From IMG/VR virus record IMGVR_UViG_3300031654_000003, positions 1-57,775 of that record: a stretch of 57,775 nt of DNA; one strand, 5' to 3'. Position numbers and translations under genes: made by a program. The stretch is from a virus. The notes below the pieces were generated by a model that was not told where the DNA came from, did no database searches, and worked only from the letters and a program-made list of their open reading frames with translations. Numbering within the stretch: the stretch's first letter is position 1; every line of letters starts with the position of its first letter. This document shows, piece by piece, positions 1 through 57,775 of this stretch.

Positions 1-126
1 TGATGTTTCTGTCAAAGTGCCGTGAGTGCCGGGGATGTTGCCATACTTCGGGAAAACTACCTCATAGCCTTTATTCTTACCCCATTCTTCTTTATTTGAA
101 ACAAACTGCCGAAAGCGATACATACT
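1..126. repeat. Terminal direct repeat, left copy (circular-contig overlap)
   Basis: These 126 bases are identical to 57631-57756. The repeat falls inside the capsid gene, and joining the two copies restores one continuous reading frame. This is expected when an assembler writes a circular or circularly permuted molecule as a line. It is probably not a biological terminal repeat, because nothing in the sequence distinguishes it from the rest of the gene. Confidence 0.95.
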
Positions 127-173
127 CTCCGTTGCTTCCAGAATATCTGCCGTAAGCCTGGGAAGGGTCAAAT
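1..173 (-). CDS. Major capsid protein, start of exon 2 (wraps to 57630)
   Basis: Read on the minus strand from 173, this is the first part of exon 2. It completes a Tyr codon (T from exon 1 plus AT) and encodes LTLPRLTADILEATES before the methionine at 123-121 that opens the long frame at the right end of the contig. An in-frame TAA at 180-178 lies in the intron just upstream, so without splicing the capsid N-terminus could not be made. The frame continues through position 1 into 57630 and ends at 56884. Confidence 0.85.
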
Positions 174-820
174 CAGTTTACTCTGACGCTTTCACGCCAG
201 ACTGGACCATATCTTCACCGGGTCTTTTCCAGTGCTCCACGTATGGCCTCTGAGGAGCGCCTTCCATTTAGGCTTCTTACTTTTTCGGCAAGCTCGATTT
301 CATAGGGGTCATAAGGAATCCGAGTGCATATAGGAGTTTCTTTGACTCTCTTTATTCTATGTTCAATGAAATCAAGCATAAGTTGTGCTCTTTCTCGCTT
401 TCCAATAAGATATGGCAAAACTAACTTGATAAGCTTTCGTGTATTCGCTAACTTATTAGTTTCCACTATCCATACTTGTTTTTTTGTTAATTTTGCTGAA
501 TGATTTCGATAGCGAAGATTAATTCCTGCTCGTTTGCAAATATCATAAGCCTTATCAGTCAATAACTTTTCTGTGTTATTTAAGCTAAAATTAGCTATAA
601 GGCGTCTGTATTTATCGCTTTTCTTATGGAAAGTAACACAAAACCAGAAAGAGCCTTCGCCATCAATAAGTCCACCCAAATAAGCCAATTCAACTTCAGA
701 TGGAAGGCTTTCCTGCTGATTGCCGATTGTTACATCCTGAAGATTGTTACAGTTAGGCAGTACTTCAGGCTTTACGGGTTCCCAGCATACAGTGGAGTTT
801 AAGGAGACCATTTTAACCAT
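174..820 (-). mobile_element. Group I self-splicing intron in the capsid gene
   Basis: The conserved core is readable on the minus strand: P element near 788-774 (ATGCTGGGAACCC), Q at 721-706 (AATCAGCAGG), R at 254-240 (CTCAGAGGCCATACG) and S at 215-204 (AAGATATGGTCC). P1 pairs exon bases 827-821 with the guide at 809-803 and puts a U-G pair at the splice site. P10 pairs the exon 2 start (ATTT) with the adjacent guide AAAT. P6 pairs 707-700 with 267-260 and has the endonuclease gene in its loop. P9 at 200-183 is a 7-bp hairpin with a GAAA tetraloop. The terminal G is at 174. Splicing removes 647 nt and joins the capsid frame exactly. Confidence 0.88.
215..820 (-). CDS. LAGLIDADG homing endonuclease encoded in the intron
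   Basis: This is a 201-aa frame with one LAGLIDADG-type motif, YLGGLIDGEGSF, at about residues 47-58. Its C-terminal helix (LPYLIGKRERAQLMLDFIE) resembles single-motif, homodimeric enzymes of the I-CreI type. Such enzymes cut intron-less alleles and so spread the intron. The first ATG is the first three bases of the intron, but residues 1-40 translate intron core sequence (P and Q), so the working start may be a later TTG near codon 45. The stop codon at 217-215 lies right before and overlaps the S element, so the gene fills the P6 loop and part of the 3' core. Confidence 0.85.
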   Translation of the reverse strand: MVKMVSLNSTVCWEPVKPEVLPNCNNLQDVTIGNQQESLPSEVELAYLGGLIDGEGSFWFCVTFHKKSDKYRRLIANFSLNNTEKLLTDKAYDICKRAGINLRYRNHSAKLTKKQVWIVETNKLANTRKLIKLVLPYLIGKRERAQLMLDFIEHRIKRVKETPICTRIPYDPYEIELAEKVRSLNGRRSSEAIRGALEKTR

Positions 821-863
821 AGCCTCCAGCCGTGTTTACGGCAAGTAATTGTTCAGTAGCCAT
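821..863 (-). CDS. Major capsid protein, exon 1
   Basis: Exon 1 encodes MATEQLLAVNTAGG plus the first base of a Tyr codon. A strong ribosome-binding site (AAGGAG) lies 8 bases before the ATG at 863-861. Read straight through, the frame stops at a TAA (815-813) two codons into the intron. The N-terminus resembles those of N4 gp56-type capsid proteins, which run from an AGG-type linker into a 'RFRQFV' segment, as this protein does after splicing. The scaffold gene ends 17 bp upstream. Confidence 0.85.
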
Positions 864-880
864 ATTACTTTCTCCTTATA

Positions 881-3674: not shown

Positions 3675-3993
3675 TTCTACGCATTTGCTCCTTCTTCTGA
3701 CGCCTCTTGTCTATGTAGGCTTGACTGGCCTGTTTGGATAGGTCATCAGGCATACAAAGCTTTTGAACTTCTAAGGTATAATCGAACTTTTTGCCCTTGC
3801 CTTCATCACTTGACCTTATGCCGACAAGTTTGCAATCTGCCTGTACTTTCATCATTTTACCGATGTCTTGGTCATCAAAGCTGGATATACCACCCACGCC
3901 TTTATCGCTATAGTAAATTGTCGGATAGTATTTCTTCTTTGAAGATTTGCCAACTGCCTCAACTGGTTTCTCAGCTAAATCTATGGTTTTCAT
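3667..3993 (-). CDS. Hypothetical protein resembling small phage head-region proteins
   Basis: A 108-aa protein. The segment KKYYPTIYYSDKGVGG followed by a domain with alternating hydrophobic strands recalls small proteins often found between portal and capsid genes of podoviruses. The basic C-terminal tail (DKRRQKKEQMRR) recurs in shorter form in the 71-aa protein at 4193-4408. The role is not established. Confidence 0.6.
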   Translation of the reverse strand: MKTIDLAEKPVEAVGKSSKKKYYPTIYYSDKGVGGISSFDDQDIGKMMKVQADCKLVGIRSSDEGKGKKFDYTLEVQKLCMPDDLSKQASQAYIDKRRQKKEQMRRNG

Positions 3994-4196
3994 GTCACTT
4001 TCCTTTGCTTGTTACAGAGGGGTATTTTGTTTAGGCGTAATTCTTTACGCACACTATCAATAGTTAATCCCCATATTTCGCTTAATTTGCGTATTGAACG
4101 ACCATAAATAACGTATTCTCGATACCACCATTTCTTGCTGAATTGTCTTAAATCTTGGCATTTTATTCTTTCTATTTTTAGCCAATTTGCATTCAT
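3990..4196 (-). CDS. Small helix-turn-helix protein
   Basis: A 68-aa basic protein. The stretch YGRSIRKLSEIWGLTIDSV at about residues 31-49 fits a DNA-binding helix-turn-helix. It overlaps its neighbours by 4 bases at each end (ATGA type). It may be a local regulator or DNA-packaging accessory (inference). Confidence 0.55.
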   Translation of the reverse strand: MNANWLKIERIKCQDLRQFSKKWWYREYVIYGRSIRKLSEIWGLTIDSVRKELRLNKIPLCNKQRKVT

Positions 4197-42783: not shown

Positions 42784-42878
42784 CTTACTATCTCCTGTAA
42801 TAGTTCCTGATAATATTTGTTGGGGCAGGCCAGTTCAGGATGCACTGGCTTTTCGGGAGCTACCCTATCCCAACCAAT

Positions 42879-53502: not shown

Positions 53503-54127
53503 AGTGTATCGAGTAATACTGCTTGCCGAACTCTGCTCTCAATCTATCTATCTCCTGATGGGCTTCTTTACGCCGCTTGGTGGAGATAGCACCATCCCAT
53601 CTGCGGTACATTACGAGGGGAACACTGATTCGTTTGAACTTCAGACCTTTGCGATAAAGCTCGAACCAGAACAGATACTCAGCCATTATCGGGTAATCTT
53701 CACGGAATCGAGAATCGCCTATTTTCTCCCGCCTGACGGCCGTACTGAAGGTGTCGATGTAATTGCCGTAATTGGTAAGGAAATCAATATTAAACGGCGG
53801 GGGAGATGAAATCTTGTTGAATCTGTTTTTCTCATTGATTCCGATATAGCCTGCATAGAAAACATCAAAATCCTTATACTTATCCGCGTACATGGCAAGG
53901 ATTTCACACTTTTCGAGCAGCAGCACATCATCGTCATACGCCCATGTAATTAGCTCGCCCTGTGCCGTATCCAGAGCTTTATTGGTTATTTCGCTGGTCG
54001 TAAGACCAGGTTCCGTGACCTTTATGACCTCAATGTCCTTGAGTGTTTGGTATCTTACTGATTCGTCCGCCAGCTTGCTCATCCAGTTGTCCCGTATAGA
54101 GGGGTATACAATTGTCATTTTTGGCAT
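53492..54127 (-). CDS. GT-A-type glycosyltransferase, copy 1
   Basis: A 211-aa protein starting MPKMTIVYPSIRDNWMSKLA, with AYDDDVLLLEKCEILAMY as the acidic donor site. It is closely related to its neighbour at 54115. It overlaps the neighbours by 11-13 bases. Likely adds a sugar to the same chain. Confidence 0.8.
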   Translation of the reverse strand: MPKMTIVYPSIRDNWMSKLADESVRYQTLKDIEVIKVTEPGLTTSEITNKALDTAQGELITWAYDDDVLLLEKCEILAMYADKYKDFDVFYAGYIGINEKNRFNKISSPPPFNIDFLTNYGNYIDTFSTAVRREKIGDSRFREDYPIMAEYLFWFELYRKGLKFKRISVPLVMYRRWDGAISTKRRKEAHQEIDRLRAEFGKQYYSIHYGK

Positions 54128-54783
54128 ACTCTCTCTACGTAATCCTTTCTGTAAGTACGGCCTTGATAGAATTGTTCACCAAGTTCCATCCTTATTCTTT
54201 CATGCTCCTGTATTTTTTCTTCGTGGTATTTTGCCGTGCGGGAACCTGACCATTCCCTGACAAGAGCCAAGGGGACTCCAATCTGCTTGAATTTCAGTCC
54301 TTTTTGGTACAGGTCGTAGAAGAAAAGATACTCATCGGTCAACGGATAATCCGTGCGGAACCTGATATCACCTATCTTTTCCCTTCTTACCGCTGTGGTA
54401 ATCGTGCTGATGAAATTACCCATAGAAACAAACAGGCCGATATTGAAGATTGGCGGACTCCAAATCGCCATGAGCTTATTGTTTTCATCAATAATAATAT
54501 GACTGGAATAAAAGACGTCGTAATCAGGGTATTTGTCCGCATACATCGCCAGAATCTCGCATTTTGAAAGAAGGAGAACATCATCATCGTATGCCCAAGT
54601 CACCAATTCGCCTTTGGCGATATCCAAAGCTCTGTTCGCAGCCTCGCCAGGCGTTATATCAGGGTCTCTAATCTCTAATATCTCCATGTCCTTTAGCGTC
54701 TGGTGCCGAATAGAGAGCATGGCAAGCTCGCTCATCTTGTCGTTTCTTATCGAAGGGTAGATAACCGTCATCTTGGGAGACAT
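54115..54783 (-). CDS. GT-A-type glycosyltransferase, copy 2
   Basis: A 222-aa paralogue of the preceding protein: MSPKMTVIYPSIRNDKMSEL, then AYDDDVLLLSKCEILAMYAD. The shared DDD site and very similar flanks point to a duplication, with possible divergence in donor or acceptor. Confidence 0.8.
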   Translation of the reverse strand: MSPKMTVIYPSIRNDKMSELAMLSIRHQTLKDMEILEIRDPDITPGEAANRALDIAKGELVTWAYDDDVLLLSKCEILAMYADKYPDYDVFYSSHIIIDENNKLMAIWSPPIFNIGLFVSMGNFISTITTAVRREKIGDIRFRTDYPLTDEYLFFYDLYQKGLKFKQIGVPLALVREWSGSRTAKYHEEKIQEHERIRMELGEQFYQGRTYRKDYVERVCQK

Positions 54784-55328
54784 TTACAAAACACCATGAA
54801 ATTGTATGACTCTTTTCGTGAGATAGCGTAATTCTCGAACCTTATCAGCTTAAAACCAAGAGATGTAAGTATGTTTATCAGTTCCACTACGGTAACGACT
54901 TCATCTATGGGCTGGCTTGGGTCGGTCTGCTCCGGCTGATTGAAGATTAAAAGACCGGAACCTTTGACTGTTTCCGAAATATTAACCAAACTCATATAAT
55001 GCTGGTCAAAAGGTATATGTTCCAGAACATCAAAGCAGGTGACAATGTCATACTTATCATCCGGCAGTCCCGTTAAAATATCCCTTGCTATAAATTCCGT
55101 CTGTGGAAACCTCTTTTGCTGAGCTTCAACGTCAGTATCAACACCAGTAACATGGGTGAACATACTCATAAGAAATGTCAGGTAACCATCCCCGCAGCCG
55201 ACATCAAGAACGCTAAGGCTCAACTTGAGATAAGGCAGAACAAGACTCATTATCACCTGTTTTCGTGGGGTAATTTTGAGCTGACTGACTTTTTGCTTAT
55301 AAAATTCTTTAACTTCCGCCGTTGTCAT
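54768..55328 (-). CDS. Class I SAM-dependent methyltransferase
   Basis: A 186-aa protein. LSVLDVGCGDGYLTFLMS, then VTGVDTD and YDIVTCFDVLEHIPFD are the usual class I motifs. The rest is the standard C-terminal substrate part. It overlaps copy 2 of the glycosyltransferase. Confidence 0.82.
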   Translation of the reverse strand: MTTAEVKEFYKQKVSQLKITPRKQVIMSLVLPYLKLSLSVLDVGCGDGYLTFLMSMFTHVTGVDTDVEAQQKRFPQTEFIARDILTGLPDDKYDIVTCFDVLEHIPFDQHYMSLVNISETVKGSGLLIFNQPEQTDPSQPIDEVVTVVELINILTSLGFKLIRFENYAISRKESYNFMVFCKCLPR

Positions 55329-55368
55329 ACACTATATTTTTTGATAATTTGCATCCAATTAGCCAATA

Positions 55369-56430
55369 TTAAGCACCCTTTATAATCTTGTAGAACTCCT
55401 CTAAGACGTGGATATGCTTCTCCATCGTATAATCGAGCCTGTGATTAAAGACGTTTTTCTGTAGTTCCTGTCTTTCGTCCCATCTTGACTTGATTTCATC
55501 CACACTCTTGACCGATATACCAAATCCATTCTCCTCTACGAACTTGCCGACCTCCTCGGCGTTCAGTGCGATAACAGGGATTCCGCCGGCGAGATACTCG
55601 AAAAGCTTGTTGGGAAAAGCAAGATTCCATTCACGATATTCAGAAAGATTGCCGCATAGCCCCCAATCGTGAAAGCCCAGATACATCAGCATTCTTTCGT
55701 AAGGCAGGCCATCGTGCAGGATACAGATATCCTTGTAGCAGCTCTTTACTTTCTCATTGCTGGCTTTGGGTGAATAAATATGGAAATCCAAGCCAGATTC
55801 CTTGAAAGCATTGCACAATTCGACATAGGTGCAGTAGTGCATAAAATCCGCTTGCTCCGGTGTATCTATTCTTCCCTCGTAAACTATGCCGCCTACGGAT
55901 CGCCAGCTATTAAATTGATAGAACTGCTCGTTTACGTAAGAAGGCAGAACACATGAGGGTTTTGGGCTTGCGATTATCTCTTGACATTTCCGACCTACGA
56001 ATACCAAGCCATCAGCCACATCGAATGTTAATCTTTCTTCCGCCGATTTGTGCCTGTCCTCGGTACTCCTGAGAAACATCGAGTCGTGTATATCGAGAAC
56101 TGCCGGAATGTTCGGCAAAACTTCTTTTGCGACAAGAATCGGCCATGAAGGTTCGTTATGGACATGGATTATATCTGCGTCCCGATGTAACCTAAGTGTC
56201 TCTCTTAACTGGCTTGCAGTGGCAAACTGGCTTGCTGTCGTACACTGTGGAGCTATGCTCGGTAGTTTATTGCCTACAATATGGACTTCATGCCCCTTAT
56301 CCAAAAGGGCTATCGCCTGCTTCTGAAGCCGGACGCAGCAGTGAAATCCAATTTTGACAATTTTTATAATCTTGTCCTTAACCGGCAAGTTATGGGAGCG
56401 ACCCAAAAAGAGCCGCTCCCTAAAATCCAA
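55369..56430 (-). CDS. GT-B-type glycosyltransferase, first gene of the island
   Basis: A 353-aa protein. Likely start TTG 56430, with GGGGA before it. Group 1/4 motifs include ALLDKGHEVHIVG, DIIHVHNEPSW, IVYEGRIDTPEQAD and FPNKLFEYLAGGIPVIAL, with the two Glu of the donor site. The codons just after the start form a 7-bp hairpin (GGGAGCG/CGCTCCC, 56420-56394), which may limit translation or transcript flow from the strong capsid unit. Confidence 0.8.
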   Translation of the reverse strand: MDFRERLFLGRSHNLPVKDKIIKIVKIGFHCCVRLQKQAIALLDKGHEVHIVGNKLPSIAPQCTTASQFATASQLRETLRLHRDADIIHVHNEPSWPILVAKEVLPNIPAVLDIHDSMFLRSTEDRHKSAEERLTFDVADGLVFVGRKCQEIIASPKPSCVLPSYVNEQFYQFNSWRSVGGIVYEGRIDTPEQADFMHYCTYVELCNAFKESGLDFHIYSPKASNEKVKSCYKDICILHDGLPYERMLMYLGFHDWGLCGNLSEYREWNLAFPNKLFEYLAGGIPVIALNAEEVGKFVEENGFGISVKSVDEIKSRWDERQELQKNVFNHRLDYTMEKHIHVLEEFYKIIKGA

Positions 56431-56883: not shown

Positions 56884-57756
56884 TTACAGGCTTGTTCCGT
56901 GAATGATGTGTGGAGCCCAGCCTTTGTTTGCATCAATGCTGTCGCCAGTACCAGAAGCACCGCACCAGATAATCTTAAAGGCCAGATATGCCAGCCACAG
57001 TATCCACTTCTGACGACCACCTTCCTCTTCGTAGGACCTCATCTCAGGTAACATGGAATCCAATTCCATCACGGAGTCATCACCGAACACAACAGACTCG
57101 CCATACACGGAACCAAGAGAGTTCGACAGAACATTTGTGTCCTGGACGAACCGGCAGTTGTAAACCTTGCCGGCCTCAGCCGTTAATCTCTGCTCCGGCT
57201 TGGTGTAGCGATAAACATCCTGCCAGTTTGTATCATCCTTAAGCCCGCGAAGTGCATTGACAGAGGCTATACAAACATAGTTGCCTTCCTTGTCATACGG
57301 TGGAACCTTCCAGCTTGCTAACTGGTCACACATATTCTTGACGTGAAAGACATTAAGGTTGCTTGTAGCCGTTCCACCAGCAGTGCCGTTCGTGGTCAAA
57401 GTTCCGGCTGTACTCGTCGAGCATACGTACTTGGCCAAGGTAGCCCTGAACTGTGTGGCAACCGCCCGGTCGAGAGTGTCGGCCTGATGGTTCCTCAAAA
57501 CCTTATGAAGCATATTGTCAACGTTGTATTCAGCCAAGGTTTCGAGCTTTTCTGTAAAGGGAATTTTTAAGCCATATTCACCGATTGTGGCCGTTCCCCG
57601 TGCGACAACAACCTGACCTATCGGCATGGTTGATGTTTCTGTCAAAGTGCCGTGAGTGCCGGGGATGTTGCCATACTTCGGGAAAACTACCTCATAGCCT
57701 TTATTCTTACCCCATTCTTCTTTATTTGAAACAAACTGCCGAAAGCGATACATACT
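56884..57756 (-). CDS. Major capsid protein, main part (N4 gp56-like)
   Basis: The long frame from Met 57753 gives 289 aa; codons further upstream belong to exon 2 and are duplicated at 1-126. Motifs YRFRQFVSNKEEWGKNKGYE, VVARGTATIGEYGLKIPFTE, VLRNHQADTLDRAVATQFRA and GDSVMELDSMLPEMR-like parts are those of the N4 gp56-type capsid protein family with the HK97 fold. The full spliced protein has 320 residues. The 3' end is near the small head gene at 56838. Confidence 0.92.
   Translation of the reverse strand, partial: SMYRFRQFVSNKEEWGKNKGYEVVFPKYGNIPGTHGTLTETSTMPIGQVVVARGTATIGEYGLKIPFTEKLETLAEYNVDNMLHKVLRNHQADTLDRAVATQFRATLAKYVCSTSTAGTLTTNGTAGGTATSNLNVFHVKNMCDQLASWKVPPYDKEGNYVCIASVNALRGLKDDTNWQDVYRYTKPEQRLTAEAGKVYNCRFVQDTNVLSNSLGSVYGESVVFGDDSVMELDSMLPEMRSYEEEGGRQKWILWLAYLAFKIIWCGASGTGDSIDANKGWAPHIIHGTSL
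57631..57756. repeat. Terminal direct repeat, right copy
   Basis: Identical to 1-126. It shows that the contig closes on itself. One copy should be removed to give the 57,630-bp circular unit. Confidence 0.95.
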
Positions 57757-57775
57757 AATGATACGGCGACCACCG
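57757..57775. other. Illumina P5 adapter remnant (not phage DNA)
   Basis: The last 19 bases (AATGATACGGCGACCACCG) are the start of the standard Illumina P5 adapter. They begin exactly where the overlap ends and do not match the sequence after position 126. Confidence 0.95.

Follow-up and report, generated by a model that had tools for sequence, protein, structure and literature searches.

The major capsid protein (MCP) gene of this virus, which is of the N4-gp56 type, almost certainly carries a mobile group I intron. The element sits directly behind the first base of codon 15 and comes with a predicted splicing and homing mechanism. The window studied here is the whole stretch of 57,775 nt (IMG/VR record IMGVR_UViG_3300031654_000003). 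We computed the gene structure, the ribozyme core, the endonuclease fold, the set of intronless relatives and the related introns at the same site, and from these we infer splicing in vivo, DNA cutting and homing. The identity of the element as a group I intron, its splice sites and the resulting 320-aa capsid protein are all supported by the analysis.

The MCP gene lies on the minus strand and spans the circular join of the contig. It starts at 863 and runs into an in-frame stop at codon 17; excision of 820-174 (647 nt) yields an open 320-aa frame, MATEQLLAVNTAGG-Y-LTLPRLTADIL, in which the ligated codon 15 (U/AU, the slash marking here and below the splice point) restores Tyr. These coordinates and the protein length had been given in a preliminary description of the window, and all of them were reproduced. 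The long remainder of the unspliced gene matches phrog_1357 'major head protein'. Against TIGR04387 (N4-gp56 MCP) the spliced protein scores 66.8 bits, compared with 59.9 bits without exon 1, and reaches the curated cutoff of 60 for membership of this family only once spliced. Gene callers truncate this abundant virion protein; its corrected gene model is:

872..876, minus strand: Shine-Dalgarno AGGAG of the capsid gene, 8 nt upstream of the ATG (direct sequence)
821..863, minus strand: MCP exon 1, 14 complete codons and the first base of codon 15, Tyr (gene model, alignment, junction scan)
1..173, minus strand: MCP exon 2, first part (gene model)
56884..57630, minus strand: remainder of MCP exon 2 up to the stop codon (gene model; phrog_1357 and TIGR04387)

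One short gene behind the capsid gene, a cluster at 54115-56430 (minus strand) encodes a glycosyltransferase of family 4, a methyltransferase and a glycosyltransferase of family 2, and is a possible capsid glycosylation module; glycosyltransferase genes also directly follow the MCP gene in phage LittleE and in locus L119. Elsewhere in the window, positions 42805-42875 (minus strand) match the Rfam int-alpA RNA (RF02996) at 35.5 bits, just under its gathering score of 35.8.

The intervening sequence shows the U.G pair of P1 at the 5' splice site, a terminal G, and a conserved core of P3, P4, P6, P7 and P8 in the P3/P7 pseudoknot order, as expected of a group I intron. Its parts are:

174..820, minus strand: group I intron, 647 nt, terminal G at 174 (Rfam RF00028 at 30.9 bits; helices; intronless relatives)
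803..827, minus strand: P1, exon GGAGGCU (827-821) with guide GGUCUCC (809-803), U.G at the splice site (exact pairing)
813-810 with 173-170, minus strand: P10, AAAU with exon 2 AUUU (read by eye)
783..797, minus strand: 5' strands of P3, CUCCAC (797-792), and P4, UGCUG (787-783) (exact pairing)
702..718, minus strand: P4 3' strand CAGCA (718-714), P6 GGA (713-711) and P6a 5' strand GCCUUCC (708-702)
within 229..265, minus strand: P6a 3' strand (265-259) and P6 (256-254) (exact pairing)
within 229..265, minus strand: P7 5' strand GGCCAUA (248-242), P3 3' strand GUGGAG (240-235) and P8 5' strand (234-229)
205..221, minus strand: P8 3' strand (221-216) and P7 3' strand UAUGGUC (211-205) (pairing; compensatory relative to L119)
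183..200, minus strand: P9 hairpin with GAAA loop (Rfam match, pairing)

All helices pair exactly, with lengths of 7 bp for P1, 6 for P3, 5 for P4, 3 for P6, 7 for P6a, 7 for P7, 6 for P8 and 7 for P9. The P1 U-G pair, the core elements and the GAAA-capped P9 of the preliminary description were thereby recovered, along with its P10 pairing by eye. The same description had P6 carrying the endonuclease gene, which is right for the conserved domain, located in the P6a loop, but not for the whole open reading frame (ORF), which overlaps the ribozyme core at both ends. Two core helices show compensatory changes in related introns. P3 pairs as CUCCAC/GUGGAG in the window, CCUUAC/GUAGGG in L115 and GCCUGC/GCAGGC in L010, while P7 pairs as GGCCAUA/UAUGGUC in the window and GACUAUA/UAUAGUC in L119. 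The full architecture occurred in none of 3000 dinucleotide shuffles, a test that was written around the observed structure and lends it supportive weight. The 5' strand of P7 and the 3' strand of P3 are one base apart (242, 240), leaving P7.1/P7.2 absent between them; the window intron is therefore not of group IA and may be IB or IC, even though IA2 is the most frequent subtype in viruses (PMC11835236).

A covariance search, proposed earlier as a check, found Rfam Intron_gpI at 383-183 (minus strand) with 30.9 bits (E-value 8e-6 in 1 kb and 4.6e-4 in the whole window). This is under the RF00028 gathering score of 50, which is a database cutoff rather than a structural criterion, and a search at the gathering threshold misses the intron. 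The capsid intron of LittleE, proven by RT-PCR, reaches 30.7 bits with the same model and thus also falls under the gathering score; because this proven intron fails too, the low score reflects a limit of sensitivity and not a structural defect. A 436-nt insertion in P6a together with a divergent core plausibly accounts for it.

The splice junction is supported by intronless relatives, a line of evidence that was new to this follow-up and upholds the splice sites proposed before. Four IMG/VR relatives (L007 and L088-L090) are unbroken over residues 1-319, at 58-60% identity and with a matching N-terminus, and are continuous through the junction, where the alignment shows an invariant Gly-Gly followed by Tyr or Phe. 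The closest relative, L010, reads MAGEQLLATNTLGGYSTLPRLTAQI uninterrupted at this point. Among isolate relatives, the proteins of Vibrio phage 219E41.1 and Escherichia phage PTXU04 start with MAGQ(V/L)W...LGGFMYSDQL, which lines up with the spliced MATEQLLAVNTAGGYLTLPRL. Of 54 frame-keeping U...G junctions that we scored, only 821/174 has both a P1 of 7 bp with the U.G pair and a top-ranked match to the relatives.

Other readings of this region were also weighed. According to the first, the intron has lost its activity, leaving exon 1 as a relic, and translation of the capsid protein begins at TTG 171 or ATG 57753. Strong expression is required of capsid genes, and a GGAG does precede ATG 57753 at short spacing; exon 1, however, still has a strong AGGAG, an N-terminus typical of the family and a splice junction that is intact, and both the ribozyme core and the endonuclease are intact. 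The start at 57753, which the preliminary description had named as the alternative, adjoins adapter sequence and would drop 31 residues that are present throughout the family, and we regard an inactive intron as very unlikely. The probability is equally low that the intron is real and a neighbouring junction such as 816/169 is used. That junction keeps the frame and gives a protein score nearly as good, but its P1 would have 4 bp against 7, it would leave the GGAGGCU/GGUCUCC guide unused, and the related intron of L121 has a similarly formed guide at the same place.

The exons lie at opposite ends of the record, as the preliminary description had explained by a contig join, and the frame is open across the 126-base overlap of these ends. 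Closing the window by removal of the 126-bp end overlap and a 19-base tail gives a circle of 57,630 bp:

57631..57756, no strand: terminal repeat forming the circular join, identical to 1-126
57757..57775, no strand: AATGATACGGCGACCACCG, which we take to be an Illumina P5 adapter remnant and an artefact (direct sequence reading)

The topology of the record in IMG/VR is linear, probably because the adapter tail hides the terminal repeat. The presumed adapter remnant at 57757-57775 both masks the repeat and gives the open capsid ORF a false GGRRIIS N-terminus, and the case shows that adapter-tailed circular contigs can hide such split genes. That the interruption itself is an assembly artefact of the contig ends is extremely improbable. 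The join does sit at the ends, with adapter sequence on one of them; however, the intron and both splice sites are internal to the contig (174-863) and away from the join, the two ends have 126 identical bases in common across which the capsid frame is open, and related introns are held by other assemblies.

The intron contains one long ORF, open from the first intron base (820) to 215 and hence running through the ribozyme core at both ends:

215..820, minus strand: intron ORF, 201 aa, predicted single-motif LAGLIDADG homing endonuclease (PF00961, phrog_5046, PDB, AlphaFold)
about 341-688, minus strand: conserved endonuclease domain, with the motif LGGLIDGEG at about 653-679

Candidate starts are ATG 820, ATG 811 and TTG 688. 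On the unspliced RNA, the UAA stop at 815-813 adjoins AUG 811, and coupled re-initiation is therefore possible. The ORF matches phrog_5046 (7e-15) and PF00961 (LAGLIDADG_1; E-value 1e-3, just under the Pfam cutoff), and its best PDB sequence match is an I-CreI derivative (3e-4). The AlphaFold model has a mean pLDDT of 73, mostly above 80 across residues 41-160, and resembles I-CreI in Foldseek (E-value about 1e-6, TM 0.7 by target length). In this model the protein has the predicted alpha-beta-beta-alpha-beta-beta-alpha fold of single-motif LAGLIDADG enzymes, with the catalytic acidic residue in LGGLIDGEG. Inteins carry LAGLIDADG domains too, but the chance that the insertion acts at the protein level, as an intein or otherwise, is practically nil, as the capsid frame ends three codons past Gly-Gly, the ORF is in a different frame, Pfam shows no Hint splicing domain, and a group I core is present.

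As a mobile group I intron, the element would work as follows. In the pre-mRNA, the 5' splice site would be held in P1 by the U.G pair, and exogenous guanosine would cleave after U821. The freed exon would then attack after G174, and ligation would remake the Tyr codon and with it a capsid protein of 320 aa. The intron-encoded LAGLIDADG protein, a predicted homodimer, may cut at the conserved Gly-Gly-aromatic codons in those capsid genes of co-infecting phages that lack the intron, and repair of the cut gene would copy the intron in. In the same MCP family, no close relative was found with the window intron at the window site; gain by homing was thus not directly seen.

Altogether, the N4-gp56-type MCP family contains at least 11 introns, including that of the window, at six or more sites. 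The further introns were placed by their U...G ends, and these counts do not represent a random sample; at the 80 loci that MCP similarity had retrieved first, most of the other genes are intact. Single-protein scans of IMG/VR and GTDB genomes returned no close relatives of the MCP or the endonuclease, and alignments were required as queries. The placed introns are:

L155 and L162: splice after Gly-Gly, phase 0; LAGLIDADG ORFs
L061: after codon 28; LAGLIDADG_2 ORF
L115: in codon 31 (window numbering); LAGLIDADG ORF
L132 and L194: between FR and QF; LAGLIDADG ORFs
L010, L109 and L120: after (Y/W)G, about codon 92; LAGLIDADG in L010 and L120, HNH in L109
Vibrio phage 1.232.O (L004, MG592596), 3773-4085: MCP intron near the 3' end (AW/YY); 83.1 bits, above gathering

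The L010 intron has a P1 of 7 bp. The L120 splice at EWG/ was read by eye, script scoring having preferred shorter exons, and L154 was left out of the placed introns, its junction solving not being clean. At L010 (2365-3000, LAGLIDADG) and L109 (2390-2994, HNH), the introns occupy an identical MCP nucleotide, which points to an exchange of endonuclease type or to repeated insertion at one site.

An endonuclease alignment (A3) was used as the query for a second set of 80 loci. The DNA closest to the window intron is that of L119 (76.5% over 98 nt), followed by L192 (76%, in another gene), L121 (85% over 47 nt) and L122. The L119 intron interrupts an HK97-type capsid gene (phrog_10 / Phage_capsid), and the HK97-type genes of L121, L123 and L124 cluster with it. 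In these three genes, the aromatic codon is split behind its first base, at the same nucleotide as in the window (window GGAGGC T/AT TTG; L121 GGAGGG T/TT TTA; L123 GGTGGG T/TC TTA; L124 GGTGGG T/TT CTG), and in L119 the splice is at G/GY. The R element CCTCAGAGGCCATACG, which includes the 5' strand of P7, is common to the window, L123 and L124. Most of the same-site introns (L119, L123, L124, L155 and L162) go undetected by Rfam and are supported by splice logic, P1 and common core words. The endonuclease tree gives no support to a clade of the window with L119, L121, L123 and L124 and does not reject it either (p-AU 0.45); with L119 left out, that clade becomes marginal (p-AU 0.057). Related LAGLIDADG introns were also seen in L122 and L131, apparently in another type of capsid-like gene, where they follow the first 7-8 codons (..YG/).

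The occurrence of same-nucleotide LAGLIDADG introns in HK97-type genes suggests that a homing lineage targets a capsid motif common to MCP families. A broader version, in which a lineage of LAGLIDADG group I introns is specialised on tailed-phage capsid genes and crosses unrelated phages and MCP families through the Gly-Gly-aromatic motif of N4-gp56-type and HK97-type proteins, is tentative, its chances in our judgement falling slightly short of even. If it holds, the endonuclease would cut both an intronless N4-gp56-type gene and an HK97-type gene with GGTGGGTTC, conserved capsid codons would serve as a shared landing site by which one selfish intron moves between phages with otherwise little similarity, and capsid genes would be a main reservoir of LAGLIDADG introns among environmental phages.

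By our own tally, half of the endonuclease loci (40 of 80) are inside a capsid gene or directly adjacent to one, with several capsid families represented; the query alignment consisted of capsid-intron endonucleases, and this enrichment is thus partly ascertained. The 40 loci comprise 15 of N4-gp56 type, 13 of phrog_267 type, four of HK97 type and three in the L125/L141/L146 cluster, together with L130, L145, L154, L178 and L187. In a control started from non-capsid LAGLIDADG proteins, a capsid gene adjoined in roughly 13 of 63 cases, and the idea that capsid association is exclusive to the window lineage was accordingly rejected. Relatives of four isolate MCPs occurred at none of 79 control loci, compared with nine of 80. 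At the phrog_267-type loci (L127, L128, L133 and ten similar ones), the LAGLIDADG gene lies directly upstream of an apparently intact capsid gene, and it would be either free-standing or located in a leader intron.

Among known systems, I-CreI and other single-motif LAGLIDADG homing endonucleases resemble the predicted window enzyme in fold, single motif and intron-encoded origin, although identity is only about 18-20%. A close parallel at the gene level is LittleE (JF937101, L087), in which splicing of the major capsid gene intron was proven by RT-PCR and N-terminal sequencing (PMC3706429). As in the window, a capsid group I intron with a LAGLIDADG ORF is found at Gly-Gly-Tyr codons, with U before the intron, G at its end and a nearly equal Rfam score (30.7 vs 30.9). 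In contrast to the window, the LittleE MCP is of HK97 type, splicing occurs at GG/Y, one nucleotide earlier (phase 0), the ORF is on the opposite strand, exon 1 is long (165 codons) and the endonuclease is only distantly related. Within the family of the window MCP, a group I intron breaks the annotated MCP of Vibrio phage 1.232.O; this intron has 313 nt, is located near the 3' end and has no ORF inside but an HNH gene just downstream. It is unannotated in the published record, where the 289-aa MCP as annotated is cut short, the real C-terminus being encoded by a small downstream exon.

The crAss-like Delta and Zeta phages carry group I introns in their MCP genes, several per gene, located via endonuclease domains (PMC7886860); they belong to a different phage order and have a different MCP. 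The position of the window intron, described earlier as unusual, is less so in light of LittleE, the crAss-like phages and the many further cases found here. More generally, some gut phages are dense in group I introns (PMC12363816), endonucleases have been described in the vicinity of essential phage genes (PMC10448857), and co-infecting phages can compete by means of an intron endonuclease (PMC11620839). In mirusviruses, too, endonucleases favour particular virion genes, in that case within spliceosomal introns (PMC12768974). Within the incomplete coverage of our literature search, no report was found of related introns at one capsid codon across MCP families. Introns in capsid genes are thus already known, while the sharing of a site across capsid families is a lead from this comparison.
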